From NCBI RefSeq assembly GCF_003319185.1, contig NZ_QOHJ01000002.1, positions 124,001 through 188,000 of the forward strand: a stretch of 64,000 nt of DNA, in the 5' to 3' direction. Shown here one piece after another: positions 13,880 to 63,728 of the stretch. A model generated the notes under the pieces. The model was not told where the DNA came from. It saw nothing but the letters and a program-made list of their open reading frames with translations, and ran no database searches. The stretch's first letter is position 1. Every line of letters begins with the position of its first letter. Both the position numbers and the translations under genes were made by a program. Source of the DNA: Blastococcus sp. TF02A-30. GTDB lineage: Bacteria > Actinomycetota > Actinomycetes > Mycobacteriales > Geodermatophilaceae.

Positions 13880-15295
13880 ATGGCGCGACGACGTGGGCGG
13901 ATGAGCGGGTGGCTGGCCGGGTTGGCCGGCGCGCGCTCGGACGTGCTGGAGGTGGCGCCCGGTGCTCGGGCGCGGTTCGTCGCGCTGGGCGGTGTGCTGC
14001 TCTCCACCGGCGGGCTGGCGGTGCTGTCGGCGGCGTTCGCCGTGCACATGGCCCTCGGCGTCTGGTGGCCGTTCTCGCTGCTGCTCGGCCTCGGCTGGGG
14101 CGCGGTGATCGTCAACCTCGACCGGATGCTGCTGGTCGGGATGGCGCACGACTCGTCGCTCAAGCGGAACCTGCTGATGGCGGTGCCGCGGGTGGGTCTG
14201 GCCCTCGTGCTGGGCATCGTGATCTCGACGCCGCTGACGCTGCAGATCTTCCACAAGGAGATCGACACCGAGATCGTCGCGCTGCAGGCGGAGAACTCGG
14301 ACAAGTACTCGCGCGCCCTGGACGCCGACGCCCGGTTCGCCGGCCTGCCGGAGCTGCAGGAGAAGGTGCTGGCGGAGCGCGCCGTCGTCGCCTCGGGTGG
14401 CGAGTCGTCGTCGGACCTGGCCGTGCTGCAGGGCCAGGTGGCCAACGCGCAGGCGGCCTACGACGCGGCGGTCGCGCGGCAGCGCGAGCTGGACGCCAAG
14501 GCGCAGTGCGAGCTTGACGGCTCCTGCGGCACCGGTGACGCCGGCACGGGGGAGGCCTACCGGCAGGCGCGGGCCGCGGCCGACGCGCAGCTGGCCGTCG
14601 TCGCGGCGGCGCAGGCCGACCTGGACGCGGCGCGGGACGGTGTCTCGGGTGGTGCGTCGCGGGCCATGTCGCAGGCGGCTGCCGCGCTGGAGACCGACGA
14701 GGCGGAGCTGGAGCGGCTGACCACGCAGAAGGCCGAGCTGCAGGCGGCCTTCGACGCCACCAACTCGGACAACACCGGCATCCTCATCCGGCTGCAGGCG
14801 CTGTCGTCCCTGTCGGAGTCGAACGCGACGATGGCGATCGCCCACTACATGCTCGCGCTGCTGTTCATCGCGGTGGAGCTGCTTCCGGTGCTGATGAAGA
14901 TGCTGCTCAACTTCGGCCCGCGCTCGACCTACGACCGGCTGGCCGAGCTGCGCGACGACGGCGACCTCTCGGTGGAGGAGCTGCAGCAGTCGGCACGGAT
15001 CGAGGTCGAGCAGGCGCAGCAGGAGCTGCTGGTGATGGCGGAGAAGGAGCGCGTCGACCGGCAGAAGGAGCAGGTGCTGGAGCGCCGCCGGGCGCGGCTG
15101 CAGGCCGCGGCCCAGCGCCAGGTGCAGCGGTCGGCCGCGCCGGTCGAGCCGCGGGCGCCGATCGAGGACGACGAGGCCGCCGAGCGGCGCATGTGGGACA
15201 CCGGTCCGCTGTTCGAGCTGGCCCGCAAGACGGCAACCCGCACCGTCCGCTCGATCCGTCGCCGTTCCGACGAGCGCGTCCCCGAGTCGGTCTGA
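13880..15295 (+). CDS. DUF4407 domain membrane protein
   Basis: 471 residues. Two N-terminal membrane helices (about 33-80) are followed by the family hallmark WGAVIVNLDRMLLVGM and a third helix (VPRVGLALVLGIVISTPLTLQIF, followed by HKEID). A long coiled-coil/Ala-rich extracytoplasmic region contains a Cys pair (CELDGSCGTG). A last helix (YMLALLFIAVELLPVLMKML) precedes a charged cytoplasmic coiled-coil tail. DUF4407 proteins are predicted membrane scaffolds or sensors of unknown role. The opposite-strand neighbour with a PH-like domain could be functionally linked through the shared upstream region. Confidence 0.92.
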   Translation: MARRRGRMSGWLAGLAGARSDVLEVAPGARARFVALGGVLLSTGGLAVLSAAFAVHMALGVWWPFSLLLGLGWGAVIVNLDRMLLVGMAHDSSLKRNLLMAVPRVGLALVLGIVISTPLTLQIFHKEIDTEIVALQAENSDKYSRALDADARFAGLPELQEKVLAERAVVASGGESSSDLAVLQGQVANAQAAYDAAVARQRELDAKAQCELDGSCGTGDAGTGEAYRQARAAADAQLAVVAAAQADLDAARDGVSGGASRAMSQAAAALETDEAELERLTTQKAELQAAFDATNSDNTGILIRLQALSSLSESNATMAIAHYMLALLFIAVELLPVLMKMLLNFGPRSTYDRLAELRDDGDLSVEELQQSARIEVEQAQQELLVMAEKERVDRQKEQVLERRRARLQAAAQRQVQRSAAPVEPRAPIEDDEAAERRMWDTGPLFELARKTATRTVRSIRRRSDERVPESV

Positions 15296-49547: not shown

Positions 49548-51185
49548 GTGACCGCGCGGCGGTTTCCGGACCAGCCGGTCTACGGCTCGTCGGCCGAGCA
49601 GCTCTTCGTCGAGGCGCTCCAGGAGAACCTGCCCGACGACGCCGTGCTCTTCTGTGGTCAGCGCTTCAGCGATCGCCAGCAGGACCGCGAGGCCGACGTC
49701 ATCGTCGCCTGGCCCGGTGTCGGCATCGCCGTCATCGAGATCAAGGGCGGCAGCGTCCACCTGCGCGAGGGGGAGTGGCGCCAGGTCGGCGGGGGCCTGG
49801 ACAAGGTCATCCACCCGGTCGACCAGGCCCGCATCTGCAAGTACCTGCTCCGCGGGTACCTCGACCGGCACCCGCGCTGGACGGCCAGCAACCCACGGCT
49901 CGTCCACCTCGTCGCGCTGCCCGCCACCACGCTGCCGGACGACTTCTTCGCGCCCGACCTGCCGCGGTGGATGGTCCTCGACAAGACCGACCTTCCGTTC
50001 GCCGCTTCCCGCGTCGAGGAGGCGTTGCGCAAGGTCGTCGACCAGCCGGATCCGCCCTTGCCGCAGGACGTCGACGACCTCGTCGACTGCCTCGCCGGCA
50101 CGACCATCCCGCAGCAGGACCTGCTGGCGGACCTCGCCGAGCGGGAGGCCGCCTGTGACCTGCTGACCCGCGACCAGGCCCGGGTGCTGGACCAGCTCGC
50201 CCTGCTGCCCCGCGTGGAGATCCGCGGGGGCGCAGGCTCGGGGAAGACCTGGCTGGCGGTCGAGAAGGCCCGCCGGCTCGCCGCCGAGGGCAAGCGGGTG
50301 GCGCTGATGTGCTACTCGCGGGGGCTCGCCGAGTTCCTCGTGCGGCGGGTCTCCACGCTGCGCCGCCGCGAGCGGCCGGCCTACGTGGGCACCTTCCACA
50401 ACCTCGGCATCGGCTGGGGCGTGCCGCCCGGTTCGGACGACGACAGCGGCTACTGGGAGGAGTTCCTGCCGGCCGAGATGGTGTCGATCGCCCAGGGCCT
50501 GCCCGAGGGGGAGCGGTTCGACGCGATCGTCATCGACGAGGCGCAGGACTTCGCGGAGAGCTGGTGGTCGGCGGTGCTCGCCGCGCTGCGCGACCCCGAG
50601 CACGGCTGCCTCTACGTCTTCGCCGACGAGGGGCAGCGGGTGTTCGCCCGCCAGGGTCGCCCCACGGTCGACCTGGTGCCGATCCCGCTCGACGAGAACC
50701 TGCGCAACACCAAACAGATCGCCGGCACCTTCTCCAGCCTGGCGCCGTCGCAGATGCGGATCCGCGGCCAGAGCGGCGTGCCGGTCCGGTTCGTGCCCTG
50801 CGCCACCGAGGACGCCGTCGGGACCGCGGACGACGTCGCCGACGCCCTGCTCGACGAGGGCTGGCCGCCGGAGTCGCTCGCCCTGCTGACCACCCACCGT
50901 CGGCACCCCGTCCAGGTCGAGCGGCAGGCCGAGGGCCAGGACGCCTACTGGGCCACCTACTGGGAGAACGACGACCTCTTCTACGGGCACGTCCTCGGCT
51001 TCAAGGGGCTGGAGCGGCCCGCCGTCGTGCTCGCCGTCAACGGCTTCCGCGACGAGGCCCGCGCCCGCGAGATGCTCTACGTCGGCCTCTCCCGCGCCCG
51101 CGACCTGCTGGTCGTGTGTGGCGATCCGGAGCTGATCCGCCGGGTCGGCGGCGAGGCGGTCGCCCGCCGCCTGACCTCCGCGTAG
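49548..51185 (+). CDS. NERD nuclease-UvrD/Rep-like helicase
   Basis: 545 residues, GTG start. The NERD domain (about 10-115) has the PD-(D/E)XK residues in EADVIVAWPGVGIAVIEIKGGSV. SF1 helicase follows: VEIRGGAGSGKTWLAVEKARRLA (about 226), AIVIDEAQDFAESWW (about 328), LDENLRNTKQIAGTF, GHVLGFKGLERPAVVLAV and EMLYVGLSRARDLLVVCG (about 511). NERD-helicase fusions are frequent in defence islands. It heads an operon in which the next three genes follow by 26 bases or overlap. Confidence 0.92.
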   Translation: MTARRFPDQPVYGSSAEQLFVEALQENLPDDAVLFCGQRFSDRQQDREADVIVAWPGVGIAVIEIKGGSVHLREGEWRQVGGGLDKVIHPVDQARICKYLLRGYLDRHPRWTASNPRLVHLVALPATTLPDDFFAPDLPRWMVLDKTDLPFAASRVEEALRKVVDQPDPPLPQDVDDLVDCLAGTTIPQQDLLADLAEREAACDLLTRDQARVLDQLALLPRVEIRGGAGSGKTWLAVEKARRLAAEGKRVALMCYSRGLAEFLVRRVSTLRRRERPAYVGTFHNLGIGWGVPPGSDDDSGYWEEFLPAEMVSIAQGLPEGERFDAIVIDEAQDFAESWWSAVLAALRDPEHGCLYVFADEGQRVFARQGRPTVDLVPIPLDENLRNTKQIAGTFSSLAPSQMRIRGQSGVPVRFVPCATEDAVGTADDVADALLDEGWPPESLALLTTHRRHPVQVERQAEGQDAYWATYWENDDLFYGHVLGFKGLERPAVVLAVNGFRDEARAREMLYVGLSRARDLLVVCGDPELIRRVGGEAVARRLTSA

Positions 51186-51211
51186 CCGAGATCCTGAGCA
51201 GAGGAGCAGTC

Positions 51212-52144
51212 TTGACCGACGCGGACATCACCTACGTCGCCTCGGACAACGCCGTCACGCGCCGCGAGCGGCGGCGCCAGTCGGCCTACCGCGAGCAGGT
51301 GCTCGGCCGTCCGGCCGGCGTCGACTGGATCGGACGCACCCTGGGCAACTACCTGCCAGCCGACGACCGCCTGAACAACTTCCTGAGCGCGGAGGCGGCC
51401 GAATACTCCGCAGCGCGTGCGGACGTGGTGCGCAGCGAGGGTGGCCAGCTCGAGCGGACCCGCCTGTTCACCAACATGCTCAGCTCGATGCCCCTGTGCT
51501 TCTCGGTGTTCGGCCACCTGCGGGCACATCCCACCGAGGCGGTCGCCGTGCTCGGTTCCATCCTGCAGCGGGACGTCGTCGGCTTGGACGACGTGGCCGT
51601 AGGACGGCGGCAGATCGCCGGGATCGAGTGCGAATGGGCGCCCGAAAGCGAGGACCATCTCCAGGACGGGACGGCTTTCGACGCAGTGGTCGTCGCCCGC
51701 CTCGACGACGGCCGTCGGCTGCTGGTCGCCGTCGAGTGCAAGTACATCGACGGCTTCAGCCTGGACCCGGAGAACGCCGAGAAGGACGCGAAGTACCGCC
51801 GGGCCTGCGAGGACTTCGGGATGACAGGCACCGCCTTCGACGCTCTGCGCGGGCACGCCACCCGCCAGCTGCTCCGGAACGTGCTCCTGACCGAGAGCGT
51901 CCGGCGCGGTGGCCGGTCCGGATCTGCGCAGTTCGACGAGGCGATCACCGTGGTGTTCGCTCGCGACGACGACCAAGTGGCGCACGCTGCAGTCACCGCC
52001 GTCGACCGCGAGCGCGGGAGCATGCCGACGGCCGTGACGTTCCTCGGGCACGGCGCCTTCGCGGACGCGGCGAGCGGTGTGCCCGGGCTCGCCAAGTGGG
52101 CCGGTCGGTTCCGACGGCGGTACGTGGGCCAGGCGGCCGGATGA
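51212..52144 (+). CDS. PD-(D/E)XK nuclease-like protein
   Basis: 310 residues from TTG, supported by GAGGAG six bases upstream; no ATG/GTG fits the spacing better. The C-terminal half contains GTAFDAVVVARLDDGRRLLVAVECKYIDGF (about 154-183), a D..ExK nuclease core as in PGN_0703-like proteins, followed by YRRACEDFGM and a helical ATRQLLRNVLLTESV. The N-terminal part (LNNFLSAEAAEYSAARADVVRSEGGQLERTRLFTNMLSSMPLCFSVFGHL) may be a specificity part. It overlaps the next gene by 4 bases. Confidence 0.82.
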   Translation: MTDADITYVASDNAVTRRERRRQSAYREQVLGRPAGVDWIGRTLGNYLPADDRLNNFLSAEAAEYSAARADVVRSEGGQLERTRLFTNMLSSMPLCFSVFGHLRAHPTEAVAVLGSILQRDVVGLDDVAVGRRQIAGIECEWAPESEDHLQDGTAFDAVVVARLDDGRRLLVAVECKYIDGFSLDPENAEKDAKYRRACEDFGMTGTAFDALRGHATRQLLRNVLLTESVRRGGRSGSAQFDEAITVVFARDDDQVAHAAVTAVDRERGSMPTAVTFLGHGAFADAASGVPGLAKWAGRFRRRYVGQAAG

Positions 52145-53514
52145 GCTCGCGGTCGGAGTCCTCGATCTGGGCGCTTCTCGAGGAGGCCGCAGCCACGCTG
52201 CCGGAGCCGTTCAGCCGAGCCTCGCTCATCTCGTGGGTCGAGCAGCGCCGGCCCGATGTCGAGACGTCGTCCATCAGCGTCCACATCCAGTACGCCACCG
52301 CCGGCGCCCCGAATCGGGACCGGCACCCGCTCGGCCGCCGGGCGCCCTTCCTGGAGCGGGTAGACCGCGGCCTCTACCGCCGACACCACGGCGGTGGAGG
52401 GAGGACTCCTCGAAGTGAGCGCCCGCCGGAGCAGGCGGTGCCGGCCGCTCCACTCACCGACGAGGCACGGGCGCGGACCGGCTCGGCGCGCGTCCTTCTG
52501 GTCGGTTGCTCGAACCGCAAGGCCTCAGGTCCTGCGCCGGCTCGGGAACTGTTCCAGGGCGATGGCTTCCGTCGCGCCCGCGACCGTGCTGTGCGGATGG
52601 GGGTCCCCTGGTTCGTGCTCAGTGCGAAGTACGGCCTGCTGCAAGCCGACGACGTCGTCGCGCCGTTCGACGTCTACCTCGCCGACCAGCCGGCGCCCTA
52701 CCGAGCGGCGTGGGGCGAGTGGGTGGCAGCCCAGCTCGCCATCGCGACGCCGCTGGCCGGGGTGACGGTCGAGGTGCACGCCGGCGACGCCTACTGCGCA
52801 CCACTGCGCGAGCCGCTGGGGCGGCTCGGGGCCACCGTCGCCGAACCGCTGGCCGGCCTCCGGCAGGGCGAACGGCTCGCCTGGCCGGGATACCGCGAAG
52901 GTGGGGAAGAAGGCGCAGACCCGGACCCCACGGGCGCCCCGGACATCGCGTTCCTGCTCGATCCGGCGAACGCGGGCAGCCCCTCGGAGTTCATCTCGGC
53001 CGGACCGGACAACCGCCGCACGCCTGGGCTCTACGCATGGTGGGTTGACCGCACGGGGGCGGCAGAGCTGTCGGCGGGTCTGGATCATCCGGTGCAGCCG
53101 GGGCTCCTCTACGTCGGTAAGGCTGGCGGTCACCGCCCGTCGGCCGAACCCTCCAGCAGCACCCTCTGGGGGCGTGTGCACGGCAACCATCTGCGCGGCA
53201 ACGTGCGAGGGTCGACGCTGCGCATGAGTCTGGCGGCGATCCTCGGCGCGGCCGGAGCGCCGGTCACCGAGGCCGACCTCACCGCCTGGATGCACGCTCA
53301 CCTACGGGTCGCGGTCCTGCCGGTGCCCAGTGAGCTGGTCGGACGGCTGGAGGATGACCTGGTGGGGCGCGCGGATCCGCCGCTCAATCTCGCCGGCGCG
53401 CCTCAGAGCGAGCCCCGTTCAGCGCTCTCCCGACTACGGGGTCTCCTGTCGCGCCCGTCCGCCCGCCGAGCCGCCCGCCGTGCCCCCGATGAGCCGTGCG
53501 TCGGCGGGCTCTGA
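52141..53514 (+). CDS. DUF6884 + GIY-YIG-like fusion protein
   Basis: 457 residues, ATG overlapping the previous stop. N-terminal winged-helix-like segment (about 1-75, IWALLEEAAATLPEPFSRASLISWVEQRRPDVETSSISVHIQYATA). DUF6884 core (about 117-225): VLLVGCSNRKASGPAPARELFQGDGFRRARDRAVRMGVPWFVLSAKYGLLQADDVVAPFDVYL. A C-terminal GIY-YIG-like domain (about 290-430) has GLYAWWV (GLY), GLLYVGKAG (YVG), an Arg in LWGRVHGNHL and a late Glu in LVGRLEDDLV. The combination of a predicted nucleotide/base-binding fold with a structure-specific nuclease is unusual. Confidence 0.82.
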   Translation: MSSRSESSIWALLEEAAATLPEPFSRASLISWVEQRRPDVETSSISVHIQYATAGAPNRDRHPLGRRAPFLERVDRGLYRRHHGGGGRTPRSERPPEQAVPAAPLTDEARARTGSARVLLVGCSNRKASGPAPARELFQGDGFRRARDRAVRMGVPWFVLSAKYGLLQADDVVAPFDVYLADQPAPYRAAWGEWVAAQLAIATPLAGVTVEVHAGDAYCAPLREPLGRLGATVAEPLAGLRQGERLAWPGYREGGEEGADPDPTGAPDIAFLLDPANAGSPSEFISAGPDNRRTPGLYAWWVDRTGAAELSAGLDHPVQPGLLYVGKAGGHRPSAEPSSSTLWGRVHGNHLRGNVRGSTLRMSLAAILGAAGAPVTEADLTAWMHAHLRVAVLPVPSELVGRLEDDLVGRADPPLNLAGAPQSEPRSALSRLRGLLSRPSARRAARRAPDEPCVGGL

Positions 53515-56371: not shown

Positions 56372-58063
56372 GTGTCCGCGTCCGACCGCATCCCGCCGCT
56401 GTCGGCGCAGCCGCTGTCCCGCACCGCCCGCTTCGCCTCCGCCGCGCTCAGCCGCCGCTGGAAGCTGCCGGCGCCGACCTCGCCGGTAGGCGTGCTGCGC
56501 GACGTCGACGTCCCCATGCGCGACGGCGCCGTCCTCAAGGCGCACGTCTACCTGCCGGCCACCGACGGCCCGCACCCGACGGTCCTGCTGCGCTCCCCGT
56601 ACGGCCGGGCCGGCGGCTTCGCCCTCACCATGGCCATCCCGTACGCGGCGCGCGGCTACGCCGTCGTGCTGCAGAGCGTCCGAGGGACGTTCGGCTCCGG
56701 CGGCGAGTTCACGCCGGTCGTCAACGAGGAGCACGACGGGCAGGACACCGTCGCCTGGCTGCGCGAGCAGCCCTGGTTCGACGGCCGGCTGGCCACCCTC
56801 GGCCCCAGCTACCTCGCCTACACGCAGTGGGCGCTGGCGCTCGACCCGCCGCCCGAGCTCAAGGCCATGGTCATGCACATCGGCCCGCACGACCTCGCCC
56901 AGGCCGGGATGATCGACGGCGCCTTCCAGCTCACCAACGTGGCCATCTGGACCGAGATCATCAGCCACCAGGAGCGGGTCCACCCGCTGCGCGGCAGCCT
57001 CCGGCTGATGACGGCGGAGCGCCGGCTGGCCCCGCACTTCGGCGAACTGCCGCTGCAGGGCCTGGCCGAGCGGCTCGGCGGCAACCCCACGCCCTGGTTC
57101 GACGAGTGGCTCGACCACCCCGACCTCACCGACGCCTACTGGGACCGGTACCGCGCCACGCCCGCCGTCCACTCGAGCACCGTCCCCACGCTGCTCATCG
57201 GCGGCTGGCAGGACTGGTTCGTCGAGCAGACGCTGGAGCAGTACGCCGTGCTGCGCGACCGCGGCGTCGACGTCGCGCTGACCGTCGGGCCGTGGGCGCA
57301 CCTCACCATCGACCCCGCGGTCAGCGCGGTCGAGAGCCTCGCCTGGCTGAACAGCCACCTGCCGGTGGGCGAGGACAATCCGGTGCCGCCGCGGGAGGAG
57401 CGGGTCCGCGTCTACGTCCCCGGTGCGCGCACCTGGCGCAAGCTGCCCGACTGGCCCGGCGCCACCACCGACCGCACCTGGTACCTGGCACCGGACGGGC
57501 GGCTGGACGACGACGCACCGGCGCAGGCCTCGGCGACGACGTTCCGCTACGACCCGATGGACCCCACGCCCTCGGTCGGCGGGCGGGTGCTCGCCCGCAG
57601 CGCCGGCCAGCGCGACAACCGCGAGCTGGAGGCGCGCGACGACGTCCGCACCTTCACGACGACGGCGCTGCGCAAGCCGGTCGAGGTGCGCGGCGGGGTG
57701 CGGGTCCGGCTGGTCGTCGAGCCCGACAACCCGTACTGCGACGTCTTCGTCCGGCTGTGCGACGTCGAGCCGAACGGGAGGTCGCTCAACATCACCGACC
57801 GGCTCGTGCGGCTCGACCCGGCGCCGGGGGAGGAGCCGGTTCGCGGACAGCGGGTGGTGGAGACGACGCTGCCCGACACCGCGCACCGGTTCCGCGCCGG
57901 GCACCGCATCCGGCTGCAGGTCTCCGGCGGCGCCCACCCGCGCTACGCCCGCAACCTCGGCACCGGCGAGCCGCTCGGCCGAGCGACGCACGGCGTCCCG
58001 ACGAACCACCGAATCTGCCTCGGCGGAACGCGGCCGTCGTTGATCACCCTGCCGTTCGCCTGA
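56372..58063 (+). CDS. CocE/NonD family hydrolase
   Basis: 563 residues, GTG start after GGAGG. The N-terminal alpha/beta-hydrolase (X-Pro dipeptidyl-peptidase S15-like) has DVDVPMRDGAVLKAHVYLPA, SPYGRAGG, QSVRGTFGSGGEF and the nucleophile elbow GPSYLAYTQW (Ser about 146). The C-terminal jelly-roll domain ends RIRLQVSGGAHPRYARNLGTGEP...TNHRICLGGTRPSLITLPFA. The family cleaves esters or acylated substrates. The last 158 bases recur, degraded, at 61882-62038. Confidence 0.94.
   Translation: MSASDRIPPLSAQPLSRTARFASAALSRRWKLPAPTSPVGVLRDVDVPMRDGAVLKAHVYLPATDGPHPTVLLRSPYGRAGGFALTMAIPYAARGYAVVLQSVRGTFGSGGEFTPVVNEEHDGQDTVAWLREQPWFDGRLATLGPSYLAYTQWALALDPPPELKAMVMHIGPHDLAQAGMIDGAFQLTNVAIWTEIISHQERVHPLRGSLRLMTAERRLAPHFGELPLQGLAERLGGNPTPWFDEWLDHPDLTDAYWDRYRATPAVHSSTVPTLLIGGWQDWFVEQTLEQYAVLRDRGVDVALTVGPWAHLTIDPAVSAVESLAWLNSHLPVGEDNPVPPREERVRVYVPGARTWRKLPDWPGATTDRTWYLAPDGRLDDDAPAQASATTFRYDPMDPTPSVGGRVLARSAGQRDNRELEARDDVRTFTTTALRKPVEVRGGVRVRLVVEPDNPYCDVFVRLCDVEPNGRSLNITDRLVRLDPAPGEEPVRGQRVVETTLPDTAHRFRAGHRIRLQVSGGAHPRYARNLGTGEPLGRATHGVPTNHRICLGGTRPSLITLPFA
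57906..58063 (+). repeat. Direct repeat, left copy (CocE 3' end)
   Basis: Last 158 bases of the CocE gene. The matching right copy is 61882-62038, one base shorter. A 31-base and a 29-base run are identical between the copies. The two copies bracket the cassette at 58203-61841. Confidence 0.8.
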
Positions 58064-58202
58064 CGACCCCATCCGTATCGCCGGCATGACCCGCCTAAGG
58101 CGTGCCGTCCGGTGCCACGGTCGGCATGGTGCGCCCCGAATATTGGGCGATGACCACTTACGGTGCGCCGACGACCAGCAACGTTCACGCCGGAGGACAT
58201 CC

Positions 58203-59177
58203 GTGGTTCTACCCCTCATCCCTCTCGCCCTGATGGGCCTCGGCGCGACGACGGGGCTCGGTGGTCTGGCCACCGGCGTCATGGGCGGCCTGAAGATGAA
58301 GGACGCCAAGAGCATGGCCGACGCGGCGCAGAAGCGCTACGACGAGTCGATCGCTCGCACCGAGGAGCTCGTCGGCGAGACCAACGAGCGCATCCGGCAG
58401 TACGGCGAGCAGCAGGAGCAGGCCCTCCGGCAGGTGGTCGAGCGGCTGGCGACCTTCATCGAGCGCCACAGCAAGAAGGCCAATCACGGCGCAGCGCAAC
58501 TACTCGCGGGCATCGGTACGGAGCAGCGGGAGATCGAGGCGTTCGGCGGGGCACTGGCCGCGGACGTGGACTGGCTCAAGGGAGCCGGCCTGGCCGCGTT
58601 GACCGGCGCCGGTGCCTCCGTGGGCATCCCGAGCGCGGTGACGGCTCTGGGAGCCGCCAGCACCGGGACGGCCATCAGCTCGCTGTCCGGCGCCGCCGCC
58701 CAGAGCGCGACCATGGCCTACCTGGGCGGTGGATCCCTGGCCGCCGGCGGGGGAGGGGTCGCCCTCGGCACCGCCGCCCTCGGCGTCGTCACCATCGGCC
58801 CGACCATGCTCATCGGCGGTCTGACCCTGAACGGTCAGGGCGAGAAGGCGGTGACCAAGGCCAAGGAGTTTGAGGCGGCGGTGGCCGGCACCGTCGCGGA
58901 CCACACGGCCTTCCGTTCATTCCTCGACACGCTGGACACGCGGGTCGATGAGGTGAGCGGAGTCCTTGCTGGACTCGTGGAACGCGCGGAGGACGCGCTC
59001 ACCGCGCTCGAGCAGATCGACGACTTCGACTGGAAGCAGCACACCCCTGAGTTCCAGCGCGGGCTGTCGCTGACGCGCGCGGTCCGGAACCTCTCCTCGG
59101 CGCCCCTAATCGCCGAGGACGGGCAGATGAACTCGGACACGACCCGCATGGTCCTCGAGTACAAGGAGATGAAGTGA
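58203..59177 (+). CDS. Glycine-rich hydrophobic-core protein of a two-gene cassette
   Basis: 324 residues, GTG start with GGAGGA upstream. A short N-terminal hydrophobic hairpin (VVLPLIPLALMGLGATTGLGGLATGVMGGLK) precedes a charged coiled coil (about 40-100). A long Gly/Ala hydrophobic segment follows (about 125-215, GAGLAALTGAGASVGIPSAVTALGAAS...LGGGSLAAGGGGVALGTAALGVVTIGPTMLIGGLTL), then a helical C-terminus. The layout recalls pore-forming or membrane-inserting effectors, but no named family is recognised. Its stop overlaps the next gene's GTG by 4 bases. Confidence 0.75.
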   Translation: MVLPLIPLALMGLGATTGLGGLATGVMGGLKMKDAKSMADAAQKRYDESIARTEELVGETNERIRQYGEQQEQALRQVVERLATFIERHSKKANHGAAQLLAGIGTEQREIEAFGGALAADVDWLKGAGLAALTGAGASVGIPSAVTALGAASTGTAISSLSGAAAQSATMAYLGGGSLAAGGGGVALGTAALGVVTIGPTMLIGGLTLNGQGEKAVTKAKEFEAAVAGTVADHTAFRSFLDTLDTRVDEVSGVLAGLVERAEDALTALEQIDDFDWKQHTPEFQRGLSLTRAVRNLSSAPLIAEDGQMNSDTTRMVLEYKEMK

Positions 59178-59605
59178 CGGTTGCAAAAGAGCCGGTGGAG
59201 GGCGACGTCCTCCCGCCCGTGGGGTCCGCGCTCCGCTCGGTCGACGCCATGGGGGCGCTTGATAACGTCATCGACGGCGCCCGCGACTACCTCCGCCTGC
59301 GCGAGGAGGAGCAGAGCAAGCGCGCGAAGATCGACGCCTACGCGTCCGTCGAGATCACCCGCATCCAGGAGGCGAGCTCGGCGCTCAAGTCCTATTTCGA
59401 GCAGGTGTTCGCGGAGCGATCCACGACGATCGACGGGCTCTTCCGGCACTTGGACGTCGCCATGGCCAGCGGCGACGGCAAGGCCACCGAGGCTGCGCTG
59501 CAGGGCATCGTTGACCTGGCAAAGTCCTCACCGATGGTCGACATCGGCGACCTGAGCCAGATCCGCAAGGCGCTGGACGACCCGGACCACGTCTGGGAGC
59601 TCTAG
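59174..59605 (+). CDS. Partner protein of the cassette, hypothetical
   Basis: 143 residues, GTG start inside the preceding stop (GTGA), so co-translated. It is helical and charged (ALDNVIDGARDYLRLREEEQSKRAKIDAYASVEITRIQEASSALKSYFEQVFAERSTTIDGLFRHLDVAMASGDGKATEAALQGIVDLAKSSPMVD). It could be an antitoxin, chaperone or regulator of the hydrophobic partner. Convergent with the nuclease gene at 59711. Confidence 0.72.
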   Translation: MTVAKEPVEGDVLPPVGSALRSVDAMGALDNVIDGARDYLRLREEEQSKRAKIDAYASVEITRIQEASSALKSYFEQVFAERSTTIDGLFRHLDVAMASGDGKATEAALQGIVDLAKSSPMVDIGDLSQIRKALDDPDHVWEL

Positions 59606-59710
59606 CCGTCCGCGAGGAAGGCAGAGCCGTGATCGACCGAGGGGTGTCCAGCTTGGGCAAGCGCGGCGTCGGCCTGGCCCGGGTCAACTCACCCGCGCGC
59701 TCGTGACCGT

Positions 59711-60685
59711 TCAGTCACCCATGACGTAGGTGAGTCCGCCGACGCTGGCGAACGCCCTCCGGAGCCTCGTCTGCGTGTCGATCATCCAGTCGAGGTACGT
59801 GGGCCAGTTCTCCTGCTGGTCGACGGAGGCCGGTCTCATCAGAACTTCGATGCGGCAGGCCTTCCGCCCGTCAAGCGGATCGAAGACAAGCGGTCCACCG
59901 AACTCGGATTCGAAGTGCTCCCGGACAGCGACCAGTCGGTCGAACATGGCCCGGTTCTGCTGAGCGCTGACGTGGTCGAAGTAGAGCTCACTGCGCAGAC
60001 GCGAGTCCTTCGCGAAGCTCACGCCCCAGATGAGCCCTTGGCCGCCGGCAGGCATGTCGAAGTGGCTCGTGGTCGGGGCCTTGCCCTTCGACCAGTTCAA
60101 GTGCTGCGCCGCGAAGCGGTCCAAGAGCTGCTGCCAGAACTGCTGGTACAGCGCCGCCTTCGCACCGGGTATCTGCTGCTGGCTGTGAGCCGCCGTCTTC
60201 GTCGACTTGGCCCAATCGTTCGGCTGGCTGACGACAGTGAACAGAGGTGCCGGTGCCGAGGCGCCGATCCGCACAGCAGAGATCTGGACGCCGAAGAACC
60301 GCGTGCCTTCCTGTGTGTGGGTGTTGAGCCAGTCGAGAGCCGCACGATGCTCGGCCCGGAACTCGGGGGACACCCAGACGATGTTGCTTACCTCGTCGAC
60401 GCCGGCGGCGTAGGTGAGCAGTTGCCCGAGATGGCTGTGGTCCGTCTTCTGAAGCTGGTTCTCGACGATCACGGTCTCGCCCGTGCTGACGTCGTGGCCC
60501 AGCAGGTCGAGGTAGAAATCGCCGACGGGGTGCTCGTTCACGATGAGCTCGAGGTCCATCCCGAGGGCGTCCCCGAGCCGGTCAGCGTTCGCCAGCAGCC
60601 ACGGCGTGAACACGTGCGCTTCATGCGACCAGACCTCGGTCACCGGGACGGTCTCGAGCTTTCCCAGCCTCGGTAGTTCAGCCAC
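59711..60685 (-). CDS. DUF4268 nuclease-like protein
   Basis: 324 residues from GTG (VAELPRLGKLETVPVTEVWSHEAHVF), with GAGGA eight bases upstream; an earlier start would overlap the preceding gene without support. Nuclease-like core: DFYLDLLGHDVSTGETVIVENQLQKTDHSHLGQLLTYAAGVDEVSNIVWVSPEF (D...ExQ, a PD-(D/E)XK variant). DUF4268-type C-terminus with WPTYLDWMIDTQTRLRRAFASVG. The family is common in restriction-linked regions. It follows the NucS-like gene by 70 bases on the same strand. Confidence 0.85.
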   Translation of the reverse strand: MAELPRLGKLETVPVTEVWSHEAHVFTPWLLANADRLGDALGMDLELIVNEHPVGDFYLDLLGHDVSTGETVIVENQLQKTDHSHLGQLLTYAAGVDEVSNIVWVSPEFRAEHRAALDWLNTHTQEGTRFFGVQISAVRIGASAPAPLFTVVSQPNDWAKSTKTAAHSQQQIPGAKAALYQQFWQQLLDRFAAQHLNWSKGKAPTTSHFDMPAGGQGLIWGVSFAKDSRLRSELYFDHVSAQQNRAMFDRLVAVREHFESEFGGPLVFDPLDGRKACRIEVLMRPASVDQQENWPTYLDWMIDTQTRLRRAFASVGGLTYVMGD

Positions 60686-60755
60686 GTTGTGGTCCTCGGG
60701 GTTCGATTGAGTGTGTCTCGTCGGCCGTCTGGCCTCAGCGGCGGGACATGGTGTC

Positions 60756-61841
60756 TTAGTCACCGGCGTCGCTCTGGGACAACCTTCCCGACGCGGCCAC
60801 GATGGCGCCCCTCCGAGCGGAGTCCTTCAGCACATCCAGAGGTATCCCGGGACGCTTCTTGAAATCGGTCGCCGCGATCGCTTCGACCGCCAAGGGCAAG
60901 CCGGCAGCCGAGAGCTCCTCCAGGAATCGCCCCACGGCGACAGGGCCTGCGCCTCGCGTCCACTGGAAGTTGCACGAGAGTGACGAGGGAGACCCGCAGT
61001 AGACGCTGAACGGGGCGATGTCGGCGCCTGATGCCGCGGTGCCCCAGATCGAGTAGCTCGGCTGGGCGCCTGAGCCGCCGCCCTGAATGCGGAAGCCATG
61101 CGCAGCCAGGTCGTCGGCGAACGATGCGACCGCGTCCGCCAGCTCGGGGTCACGCTCACGCAGCCAGGCGTCGACGTCCGTGGAGGTCCACCGGGCGGCC
61201 CCGGCAGCGCTCCGGCGCGCGTTCTTCTCATCCGCGGACTCCGAGCCGTACACGGTCGGGATGAGGATCTCCGTGTCTCCGTGGACCGCCCGGCGGAGCT
61301 CCACGGCGAGCAGGCGCATCCCTGCCGAGGTGTGCGTGTTGAGGTATCGGACGATGCGTCGGAGATCCGCGCTGATGGAGTCGACCGCGAGCACCAACGT
61401 GAAGACGCCGGCCTCCAGGTTGGCCTCGAACGCGCGGCGCGCGTCATCCGGCTGACCATCGAACAGGAGGTCGAGGGACGTACCGCCGCGCGCCTGCCAG
61501 AGCTCCTCAAAAGTCGCCGGCGTGAGTTCGGACAGGCGTGCCGCGTAGTCGAGGACCTGACCGACGATGACCCGGCGGATGTCTGCATCGGTGGCCAGCT
61601 TGCACTCGACGATCGTGATCGTGCCATCGGTGTCGACGACGACGAGGTCGGCGCGGCCCACGCTGGTGGCCAGTTCGCGGACGGCGACCGCGTCCGCGCC
61701 AACGCCCTCGATGAGGCTCGGCTGCTCGGACAGGATCTGCTGCAACTCCGCTTCATTCACGTAGCCGTAGCTGCTGGGGTCGGTCCACCGCCCGCCGTGA
61801 TCACGGACTCGGATCTCGGCGGCACTTCGCTGTAACGACAC
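60756..61841 (-). CDS. NucS-like/PD-(D/E)XK endonuclease family protein
   Basis: 361 residues from GTG (VSLQRSAAEIRVRDHGGRW). An earlier start would need residues translated from the hydrolase remnant and is rejected. Core: SLIEGVGADAVAVRELATSVGRADLVVVDTDGTITIVECKLATDADIRRVIVGQVLDYAARLSELT, with D..ExK and a downstream QVLDY. The rest is an all-alpha/beta C-terminus ending VAASGRLSQSDAGD. Similar proteins are annotated as restriction-like or DUF91-type nucleases. It forms a pair with the DUF4268-like gene. Confidence 0.85.
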   Translation of the reverse strand: MSLQRSAAEIRVRDHGGRWTDPSSYGYVNEAELQQILSEQPSLIEGVGADAVAVRELATSVGRADLVVVDTDGTITIVECKLATDADIRRVIVGQVLDYAARLSELTPATFEELWQARGGTSLDLLFDGQPDDARRAFEANLEAGVFTLVLAVDSISADLRRIVRYLNTHTSAGMRLLAVELRRAVHGDTEILIPTVYGSESADEKNARRSAAGAARWTSTDVDAWLRERDPELADAVASFADDLAAHGFRIQGGGSGAQPSYSIWGTAASGADIAPFSVYCGSPSSLSCNFQWTRGAGPVAVGRFLEELSAAGLPLAVEAIAATDFKKRPGIPLDVLKDSARRGAIVAASGRLSQSDAGD

Positions 61842-61858
61842 CGTGGCACTGTGCCACG
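61842..61858. promoter_or_regulatory. Palindrome adjoining the nuclease gene start
   Basis: A perfect inverted repeat, 8-base arms around one central base (CGTGGCAC T GTGCCACG), abuts the proposed GTG start of the minus-strand nuclease gene. It lies 23 bases from the CocE remnant. It could be an operator for autoregulation, or a mark of the recombination junction. Confidence 0.35.
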
Positions 61859-61881
61859 ACAGCGACCAGGCGCCGGCCAAC

Positions 61882-62038
61882 GCATCCGGCTGCAGGTCTC
61901 CGGCGGCGCCCACCGCGCTATGCACGCGACCTCGGCACCGGCAAGCCGGTCGGGCGGGCGACGCACGGCGTCCCGACGAACCACCGGATCGGCGTCGGCG
62001 GCGCGGCGCCCTCGTCGGTCACGTTGCCGGTGGCCTGA
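61882..62038 (+). pseudogene. Remnant of a CocE/NonD hydrolase 3' end
   Basis: Encodes RIRLQVSGGAH, then after a one-base loss RYARDLGTGKPVGRATHGVPTNHRIGVGGAAPSSVTLPVA and a stop: the last about 52 codons of a CocE-like gene. The reading frame is open only in pieces and has no start. It matches the intact gene's end (57906-58063) closely but not identically, so it derives from a related paralogue or an old duplicate. Confidence 0.8.
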
Positions 62039-62136
62039 CTTCCCGGGTGGCGACCCGCCGGCGAGCGTGCGAGGCCTTGAAACGCCGCGCCGCGTCGCAC
62101 ACTGAGCCGACGCGGCTTTCGGCTCGGAGGAGTTCC

Positions 62137-62844
62137 ATGTACGACGCACGGCCCCAGGTGCCGGCTCCTGGCCCACGCGCGCCCAGGGCGGCGGGATGGT
62201 TCAAGGGTGCCTGGTACTTCGCCATCACAGTGGTCTCTTTCGGTTTCCTCGCCGCGATCCCTTTTTGGCACGCGGCCAGCCGTCTAGGGCGGCGCGACCT
62301 CCGTACCCTCGCCCTGACCTACACGCTGGCGGGGATCTATCTCGTCGTCATCTTTTCCGTAACTCCCCGGAATGCAGACGGCACGACGGCGAATGAGACG
62401 CTCAGCGTGATCGGTGGCCTCAGCGCCTTTTTCATCCTGATCGTCGGTTGCCTGCACCTCCGCCCGCTGCGCCGTCAAGTCTATGGCGGGGGGCGAGTAG
62501 TACTCGCCCACGACGATCCCGTGGTGGCCCGCGCGCTCGAGGCGCGCTCTCGACGACAGGAGACGCGGCGTCTGCTCGCTCGTGAACCCGCCCTTCGGCG
62601 CGAGCTCGGCATCGGGCGCCCCGACCTGAACCGCGGTTACGACGACGGAGGTCTGATCGACCTCAACACCGCACCCGCCCGTGTCATCGCCACGGTCTGC
62701 GGCATCGAATTGCCCCATGCCGAGGCGATCGTCGCCGGGCGCAGGACCCGCGGCGGCACGTACTTCAACATCGGCGAGGTGCTCGTCGATGTCCCGCTCC
62801 CGCCGCACGTCCAGGACGAGCTGCGCGAACGCGCCGTCTTCTGA
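62137..62844 (+). CDS. Helix-hairpin-helix membrane protein
   Basis: 235 residues from ATG (MYDARPQVPAPGPRAPRAAGWFKGAW) with GGAGG six bases upstream. Two or three membrane segments are visible (WYFAITVVSFGFLAAIPFW; LALTYTLAGIYLVVIFSV; LSVIGGLSAFFILIVGCLHL). A cytoplasmic charged stretch precedes a ComEA-like helix-hairpin-helix end (LIDLNTAPARVIATVCGIELPHAEAIVAGRRTRGGTYFNIGEVLVDVPLPPHVQDELR). No competence gene lies nearby. Role unknown; DNA binding at the membrane is possible. Confidence 0.85.
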   Translation: MYDARPQVPAPGPRAPRAAGWFKGAWYFAITVVSFGFLAAIPFWHAASRLGRRDLRTLALTYTLAGIYLVVIFSVTPRNADGTTANETLSVIGGLSAFFILIVGCLHLRPLRRQVYGGGRVVLAHDDPVVARALEARSRRQETRRLLAREPALRRELGIGRPDLNRGYDDGGLIDLNTAPARVIATVCGIELPHAEAIVAGRRTRGGTYFNIGEVLVDVPLPPHVQDELRERAVF

Positions 62845-62872
62845 CCACCCACCAACGCACACGGGGATCCAC

Positions 62873-63412
62873 GTGACTTCACCGCCGTACGACCCGATCG
62901 GCTTCGGCGACGGGCCTCCGCCGCGACCGTTCTACCGCCAGCCCTGGTTCGTCGTGATCGCAGGACTCATCGCCATCGCGCTCCTCGTCCTGGTGGCCGG
63001 GGGCGACTCCGACGACGGGTTTGAGGCGAGTGCGGCCACCGCCACGACGAGTTCCTCGGCGTCGACCCGGCCGTCGGCCGCGCCGACGTCTACGGCGGAG
63101 AGCTCGTCGCCCGCTCCGACGCCGGCAGCCTCAACGTCCGCGGTTCCGACGTCGTCGGCTCCAGTGACGCCCGCGGTGGACTTCGCGATGCCGGACGTGG
63201 TGGGCATGGATCTGCAGTCGGCGCAGGACCTGATCCAGACCTACGGGGTCTTCCTCAGCGTCTCCCATGACGTGAGGGGCTCCCGCAACCAGGTCGTGGA
63301 CTCGAACTGGATCGTCTGCGACCAGAACGTCCCGTCGGGCCAGCGGGTCACCGGCGACGTCGAGGGCTTGATTGACCTCGGTGTCGTGAAGCGCGGGGAG
63401 TCTTGCCCCTGA
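62873..63412 (+). CDS. PASTA domain membrane-anchored protein
   Basis: 179 residues, GTG start. One membrane helix (WFVVIAGLIAIALLVLVAGG, about 25-44) is followed by a Ser/Thr/Ala/Pro-rich linker. One PASTA domain follows (about 101-176: FAMPDVVGMDLQSAQDLIQTYGVFLSVSHDVRGSRNQVVDSNWIVCDQNVPSGQRVTGDVEGLIDLGVVKRGESC). PASTA domains bind muropeptides or beta-lactams in kinases and PBPs; a stand-alone copy suggests cell-wall interaction. A hairpin terminator follows. Confidence 0.92.
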   Translation: MTSPPYDPIGFGDGPPPRPFYRQPWFVVIAGLIAIALLVLVAGGDSDDGFEASAATATTSSSASTRPSAAPTSTAESSSPAPTPAASTSAVPTSSAPVTPAVDFAMPDVVGMDLQSAQDLIQTYGVFLSVSHDVRGSRNQVVDSNWIVCDQNVPSGQRVTGDVEGLIDLGVVKRGESCP

Positions 63413-63493
63413 GCGACCGGCGGTGTCGCCTGAGCCACAGGATGACGAGTCGCCAAGTCGACATCTCGACCCCATTCGCCCCGCTCGTCCCAC

Positions 63494-63526
63494 CCGCCCG
63501 GGACGCCTCTCCAGCGTCCCGGGCGG
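63494..63526 (+). terminator. Hairpin terminator after the PASTA gene
   Basis: The 13-base arms 63494-63506 and 63514-63526 are exact reverse complements around a 7-base loop, 82 bases past the PASTA gene stop and upstream of the small gene at 63555. No T-run. Confidence 0.65.
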
Positions 63527-63554
63527 ACGGCAGTCCGCTTCGTACGGTTGTTAC

Positions 63555-63728
63555 GTGGCCAAGCACTTCGTCGATGAGACCGCTGAGTTCAAGATGCCCC
63601 GTCCCGGGCGGCACGCCGCCGCCGACACCGGCGAGCTGGACCTGACCCAGCGCTTCGACCCCGGCTTCCGCCGGCAGCGCCCCGCCGTCCCCGCCCCGCA
63701 GCCGACCCGGGACGCCGACCACCGCTGA
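63555..63728 (+). CDS. Small hypothetical protein (57 aa)
   Basis: GTG start, sequence VAKHFVDETAEFKMPRPGRHAAADTGELDLTQRFDPGFRRQRPAVPAPQPTRDADHR. It is hydrophilic and disordered-looking with no Cys. No clear ribosome site lies upstream, though the terminator just before it leaves room for its own promoter. No family recognised. Confidence 0.5.
   Translation: MAKHFVDETAEFKMPRPGRHAAADTGELDLTQRFDPGFRRQRPAVPAPQPTRDADHR

Follow-up and report, generated by a model that had tools for sequence, protein, structure and literature searches.

A variable spot between a CocE hydrolase gene and a small conserved gene in Blastococcus, with a repeated gene end around candidate defence genes

Why does the 3' end of a hydrolase gene stand on both sides of a group of other genes? 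The question is raised by a 64,000-nucleotide stretch of Blastococcus sp. TF02A-30 (contig NZ_QOHJ01000002.1, positions 124,001 to 188,000; hereafter the window), in which an intact gene of the CocE/NonD hydrolase family (56372..58063, + strand; Pfam PF02129 and PF08530; NCBIfam TIGR00976, E 7.6e-97) is followed by a four-gene cassette, A1, A2, B1 and B2, and then by a second, damaged CocE end. The locus was compared across 112 genomes of the family Geodermatophilaceae, including 23 of the genus. Genomes are given G numbers, the window genome being G000, and loci L numbers: L170 is the B. haudaquaticus locus, L179 the Geodermatophilus ruber locus, and L124 and L127 lie in G009 and G031. We find that the cassette occupies a spot, flanked on the left by CocE and on the right by a 57-amino-acid conserved gene, D3, that is empty or differently filled in relatives. 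We lean towards the reading that this is an integrase-free recombination spot with varied, often defence-like or toxin-antitoxin (TA)-like, cargo, at which the CocE end was duplicated by homologous insertion.

The repeated CocE end and its borders

A preliminary description of the window had reported that the last 158 bases of CocE recur beyond the cassette, one base shorter and decayed. This is borne out, as 57906-58063 and 61882-62038 align at 86% identity with a one-base gap, and the repeat extends 12 bp further leftward. By alignment, the full units are a 170-bp left copy (57894..58063, +) and a 5'-truncated, frame-shifted remnant (61870..62038, +), 86.1% identical, with one base deleted in the remnant. 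In a search of the 4.13-Mb genome, the second CocE-end copy scored E 3.8e-50, while the other nine matches among those listed spanned 25-68 bp and none had an E value better than 4e-5; a chance repeat is ruled out (E 4e-50). When 58064-63554 was searched with CocE 3' ends (800 bp each), the remnant gave the top matches (best four of 24), in line with the earlier statement that no hydrolase sequence lies between the copies. The two operons placed there are also present, with A1/A2 on the + strand and B1/B2 on the - strand.

The 23 mismatches among 166 aligned bases fall 10, 2 and 11 times on codon positions 1, 2 and 3. The two ends therefore appear to have diverged mostly as coding sequence, and most of the divergence looks older than the decay of the remnant. 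A recent duplication of the genome's own CocE end is not favoured, given the 14% divergence, mainly at codon positions 1 and 3. Either end is 76-87% identical to the full-length genes of 17 of 18 relatives, the eighteenth, G031, giving 62-65%.

Both borders can be read closely. The left junction (58061..58064) is where the CocE stop codon meets the 5' flank of A1 (58064..58202, +). The A1 flanks of G038 (85%, from 58061) and G009 (76%, from 58064) align with the 139 bp that separate A1 from the CocE stop, and no CocE sequence was found next to A1 in either genome in the flank comparison, indicating that the left border directly adjoins the CocE stop codon. The right junction had been expected near 61871, and this is where it falls: the B2 5' flank resembles G019, though weakly (E 0.22), as far as 61858, and homology to CocE sets in at 61870-61872, which places the junction (61859..61870) to within about a dozen bases.

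Beyond the remnant, the intergenic stretch (62039..62136) is collinear with the intergenic region between CocE and D1 in G010. Homology to G010 covers positions 3-239 of the 267-bp stretch from the remnant to D1, passing the stop codon into the intergenic region, while in other genomes it reaches 183 at most. The order in G010 is CocE-D1-D2-D3, without the cassette of the window. The remnant is therefore the CocE end that belonged with D1, and the new joint is the one between the intact CocE and A1. D1 (62137..62844, +; 235 amino acids), which directly follows CocE in G010, has a weak helix-hairpin-helix-like C-terminus, and D2 (62873..63412, +; 179 amino acids) has a weak PASTA match below the cut-off. 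D3 (63555..63728, +) has no Pfam match and is present in 23 of 23 genus genomes and in 45 of the 112 family genomes. Two D3 matches were seen in five family genomes, two of them in the genus (G005 and G018).

Empty, filled and relic sites in relatives

Linkage of CocE to D3 was counted by hand from match tables, as a CocE 3' end on the same strand and no more than 6 kb upstream of D3. A CocE-end match was present in 33 genomes, and the end was linked to D3 in 20 of the 112. Nine of these sites are empty (G003, G011, G012, G013, G014, G017, G019, G025 and G111), with D3 starting 105-135 bp past the CocE stop in the eight measured genomes; G111 was called empty from match spacing. Seven are filled (G000, G007, G010, G020, G024, G029 and G052), three have a CocE relic only before D3 (G005, G008 and G018), and in G031 CocE and D3 are split by IS21-family relics. 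The other 25 D3-bearing genomes either lack a CocE match or have CocE elsewhere: on a different contig, downstream of D3, or at a greater distance (13.5 kb in G015). The proposal that the cassette is accessory, and that relatives carry other cargo at the same spot, is thus upheld by the empty and the differently filled sites.

The cargo of the filled spots measures 0.7-5.5 kb and varies in kind. G020 carries a Fic protein with a ribbon-helix-helix (RHH) antitoxin-like partner, and G007 a protein of the same Fic family after CocE; G010 carries D1-D2, and G029 a NERD-helicase, a gene designated c20, and D1. L170 contains a 370-amino-acid unknown, a PIN-domain protein and a DUF4253 protein, and L179 a 1082-amino-acid RNaseH-AAA helicase with MkoA-like matches; the contents of G024 and G052 were inferred from L170 and L179, with agreeing spacings. 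PADLOC matches at E<=1e-10 occur in the cargo of G000, G020, G029 and L179. The L170 cargo includes a PIN-domain protein but gave no match in PADLOC, and D1-D2 of G010 gave none when their window homologues were scanned. As a control, ten neighbouring gene families, a small sample, gave one weak PADLOC match (E 8e-7). The borders of the B. haudaquaticus fill can be read against its relative B. litoris: homology between the two stops 3 bp past the CocE stop codon and resumes 15 bp past it, with ~2.9 kb between. Parts of this insert match B. litoris DNA a few kb downstream, showing that genes also shuffle locally.

In G029, a 41-bp relic matching the last 41 bp of CocE (88%; E 7e-9, or 2e-8 for the whole interval) lies 121 bp before the D3 start. 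Other cargo separates this relic from an intact CocE 3.4 kb upstream of it. As read from these alignments, G029 repeats the architecture of the window with different genes. This bears on an explanation by coincidence, in which an old duplicate CocE decayed beside D1-D3 and cargo later landed between the duplicate and a separate CocE. CocE relics beside D3 are indeed common (three of the 20 linked genomes), and no two have the same breakpoint (about 254, 326 and 507 bp). Such a history, however, leaves unexplained why the left border lies at the CocE stop and the right border at a CocE end, and why G029 has the same plan, and we regard it as improbable. Including a fourth relic, the other lengths are about 254, 303, 326 and 507 bp, compared with 169 bp in the window, which gives no hint of a fixed core.

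The A1 flank gives a further link to the spot. Its first 35-44 bp match the D3 5' flank in G038 (E 1.7e-7) and G009 (E 5.7e-7), in a comparison with 21 flanks, and weakly in G000; the scores in G038 and G009 were reached by none of 300 shuffles. Among 556 other upstream regions used as a control, the best scores were 62 and 54, both beside CocE ends as expected, and the next was 42; G038 and G009, at 45 and 46, lie above this value and G000, at 31, below it. G038 presents a half-site, with A1-A2 directly before the D3 flank and CocE about 12 kb away. Because the A1 flanks of G038 and G009 start with D3-flank sequence, the comparison points to an earlier passage of the A1-A2 pair through the CocE-D3 interval. 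The D3 5' flank itself is GTCGAC-rich and partly palindromic in many of the aligned flanks, with TCGAGAAGTCGACTTCTCGA in L170 (about 14570-14600); it could be an operator or a recombination-prone site.

Three further observations concern CocE in relatives. In G001, an LmuA-like protein lies downstream of CocE and D3 is absent from that place. In G031, the relics that split the D3-linked CocE (L127, 3694-4965) comprise IstB and a Mu-type transposase C-terminus. The CocE end and D3 flank of G005, G018 and G031 are unusually close (86-89%) to those of Geodermatophilus sp. YIM 151500 (L129, L131, L127 and L186), which suggests transfer of the CocE-D3 segment between genera. Among 22 named loci at least 70% identical to the CocE protein (L165-L186), 17 are from Blastococcus, three from Geodermatophilus and two from others.

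Origin of the duplicated end

In the reading that we favour, the incoming DNA would have carried the A1-A2 pair (PDC-M09-like), the B1 and B2 genes (PDC-S11-like) and a CocE 3' end. A single homologous crossover with the resident gene, inside CocE, would leave one intact CocE with the cargo flush after it, and a 5'-truncated CocE end still joined to D1-D2-D3; the truncated end would have decayed afterwards. The donor may have been circular or linear. The preliminary description had proposed homologous exchange between gene ends, which is plausible because the CocE trees conflict with rpoB.

The CocE data reject the group {G011,G013,G014,G017} (p-AU 0.00025 in the approximately unbiased (AU) test), which rpoB unites at 99/99, starred, together with G002, a genome without intact CocE. 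They also reject that group plus G000 (8e-5), the pair {G000,G019} (6.7e-5; rpoB 89/79) and the seven-genome rpoB clade of G010 (2e-37). As the CocE tree rejects these rpoB groupings, we conclude from the two phylogenies that CocE has moved between species. The bodies and ends of the gene may also be of mixed ancestry, on a hint that is noisy: an intact CocE whose last 170 bp are foreign, which both an e14-like and a single-crossover model would permit, was considered and set aside, since identity by window points that way with a good deal of noise and few groupings are rejected by AU tests on 170 bp (remnant with G011, p 0.022; {G000,G013,G014,G029} without the remnant, p 0.054).

The same gene order would also follow from block replacement, a model close to that of the preliminary description. 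Here an incoming block, made up of the cargo and a CocE of its own, would have taken the place of the resident gene's body through a homologous junction upstream, on the left, and an illegitimate one inside the old gene on the right. The two ends differ as species orthologues do (86.1%, against 76-87% in 17 of 18 relatives), the CocE trees conflict with rpoB, and G031 holds CocE of two lineages, the D3-linked copy broken and an intact copy of the other lineage about 14 kb away. The full-length G000 gene, however, falls with G013/G014 and with G029, a genome of another genus (100/100), which is not far from its rpoB position, and in a 169-bp tree the remnant leans to its own genome's copy (91-94 / 77-85, not starred); when that copy is left out, it joins G010 (88/84). 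Nor was a tandem arrangement seen. The preliminary description had supposed two tandem CocE paralogues, and this part is not supported: CocE at E<=1e-80 is present in 15 of the 23 genus genomes, each with one copy, and G031, which has two, has them far apart and of different lineages. We give block replacement a minor share of the probability.

A site-specific element would be a third route. In Escherichia coli, as the excerpted account of prophage e14 in icd puts it, lysogens and non-lysogens carry icd alleles that differ by 12 single-nucleotide polymorphisms, and the e14 crossover falls in 11-bp direct repeats (PMC4759930). The anatomy of the window, with an intact gene, inserted DNA and a displaced gene end as a direct repeat, is the same, and an element of this kind may have given CocE a new end, displaced the old one and then lost its integrase gene. 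The longest identical run between the copies is close to the left edge of the repeat. It codes for RIRLQVSGGAH, however, which is nearly invariant in the aligned relatives, so that no att core is needed to explain it. Unlike the e14 case as set out in that excerpt, the window has no integrase that we found, a 14% divergence over 166 bp with a frame-shift, and relics of varied length among its relatives (PMC4759930). Moreover, the B. haudaquaticus fill sits past the stop codon and not within CocE. Neither an integrase nor a fixed core sequence was found at the CocE-D3 spot, and an integrase scar appears quite unlikely.

The search for mobility genes gave a consistent picture. There is no tRNA gene in the window, along the contig the closest tyrosine integrase domain lies at a distance of about 256 kb, and the sole serine resolvase domain found in the window genome sits on another contig; for these reasons we describe the spot as integrase-free. 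The absence of integrase domains extends to the scanned cargo proteins of G020, L170 and L179. The cassette genes, D1 and D2 have no DDE transposase match in Pfam, no genome-wide search for DDE transposases having been made. With this scope, the earlier observation that no integrase or transposase is present holds.

Several points weigh against the homologous insertion that we favour. No donor molecule was found. A second CocE end is present in two of the seven filled spots (G000 and G029), with relics of different length, 169 and 41 bp, and none was found in the whole CocE-D3 intervals of G007, G010, G020, L170 and L179. (With lenient alignments, CocE ends seemed to precede D3 in G020 and B. 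haudaquaticus, but these disappeared under stricter scoring, and a 28-bp match to the CocE body in L179, E 4e-4, was taken as chance.) For this reason the site, previously put inside CocE, fits better in the interval from the CocE stop to D3. The relics of G005, G008, G018 and G002 occur in genomes without an intact CocE at E<=1e-80, indicating that decay by itself also leaves CocE relics. In the 169-bp tree the two CocE ends are not told apart by origin, and other placements are mostly not rejected. The A1/D3 flank match is weak in the window genome itself, its score being reached by 8 of 300 shuffles and by at least 12 of the 556 other upstream regions. Finally, any defence enrichment of the spot would be judged from very few sites and from candidate models, and the defence labels are matches of hidden Markov models (HMMs) to candidate families only.

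The spot would nevertheless join a known class of hotspots, with an unusually readable footprint. Hotspots without mobile elements, with recombination in the flanking core genes, have been described across bacteria, and such sites are proposed to swap cargo by homologous recombination at the flanking genes (excerpt of PMC5635113). As in the hotspots of that excerpt, the CocE-D3 spot has conserved flanks, cargo turnover, no integrase or tRNA and a phylogenetic conflict in a flanking gene; unlike them, it spans several genera, often loses the CocE flank itself and shows a gene-end duplication in two genomes (PMC5635113). The same flanks enclose different cargo from genome to genome, and in the window genome the locus has no integrase, resolvase or tRNA. 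The core defence hotspots of Pseudomonas aeruginosa, cDHS1/2, are defence-rich and, in the passages of their description consulted here, likewise combine diverse anti-phage genes with fixed flanks and no single mobile element type, whereas the CocE-D3 cargo is small (0.7-5.5 kb), with weak or candidate defence labels and few species sampled (PMC10250203). Literature searches on the candidate families, Blastococcus and hotspots returned no title on this locus among the best matches, which does not exclude its being in print. What the locus offers is a small spot that, among relatives in Blastococcus and Geodermatophilus, occurs empty, filled or half decayed, with borders that can be read nearly to the base; the duplicated gene end would be the visible footprint of a single event.

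We also considered a broader idea, which we hold to be doubtful: that defence cassettes of this family carry a piece of their target locus, a CocE end or a D3 5' flank, as a homology arm and insert by single crossover. If this were so, each landing would duplicate a gene end or a promoter, and the D3-flank scar before A1 (G038, G009) and the CocE ends of 169 bp (G000) and 41 bp (G029) would be three traces of a single, recombinase-free mode of mobility.

Cassette genes and their neighbourhood

The cassette genes would place members of two candidate families, PDC-M09 and PDC-S11, in soil bacteria, PDC standing for phage defence candidate. A1 (58203..59177, +) encodes a Gly-rich, predicted helical protein of 324 amino acids that resembles PDC-M09A (PADLOC PDLC04407, E 1e-21; alignment of 7). 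In its low-confidence structural model, which has a mean predicted local distance difference test (pLDDT) value of 61, the protein is predicted to be helical and the Gly-rich middle is of very low confidence. A2 (59174..59605, +; 143 amino acids, with a likely GTG start) overlaps A1 by 4 bp and also follows it in G004, G009, G017 and G038; it has no PADLOC or Pfam match, and NCBIfam gives noise only. Beyond A1, no component of an M09 system was recognized. A1 relatives occur on plasmids in five records, all distant and below 60% identity.

B1 (59711..60685, -; start approximate) is a DUF4268 protein (PF14088, E 2e-23) and a PDC-S11 candidate defence protein (PDLC04911, E 5e-108); like A1, it matches its PDC model over most of its length. 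B2 (60756..61841, -) is PD-(D/E)xK-like and NucS-C-like, with a weaker PDC-S11 match (PDLC04916, E 1e-15) and weak, sub-cut-off matches to NucS-like endonuclease models (NCBIfam NucS, E 3e-6). The residues G62, D65, E79-x-K81 and Q95 of B2 are invariant in eight aligned relatives, a pattern that we take to be that of PD-(D/E)xK nucleases. A comparison of B2 with PDB sequences gave no match at E<=1. B2 relatives were found on 22 plasmid records, 17 of them from Rhodococcus. The cassette thus carries candidate anti-phage genes, labelled by HMM match to candidate families; we know of no tested function of the PDC-M09 or PDC-S11 families.

Directly upstream of the likely B2 start codon is a perfect 8-bp inverted repeat, CGTGGCAC-T-GTGCCACG (61842-61858), a possible operator, to which a partly similar sequence exists in G019. 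The G+C content of the cassette (67.7%, compared with 70.8% in the window) is not exceptional, as 37 of 301 comparison windows are equally low, and low G+C was rejected as a mark of the cassette.

About 4.5 kb upstream of the CocE end, at 49548-53514, lie genes for a NERD-helicase-like protein (RTasNERD-Hel, E 2e-35), an unknown protein and a PDC-M57A match, making the neighbourhood defence-like on both sides of CocE. Members of the same gene clusters recur near D1-D2 in G015 and G027. In G009 (L124, 4414-16773), A1-A2 lie near the DISARM genes DrmA and DrmB and a NERD helicase, and also near a 1087-amino-acid RNaseH-AAA helicase, the type of protein that occupies the CocE-D3 spot of Geodermatophilus ruber.

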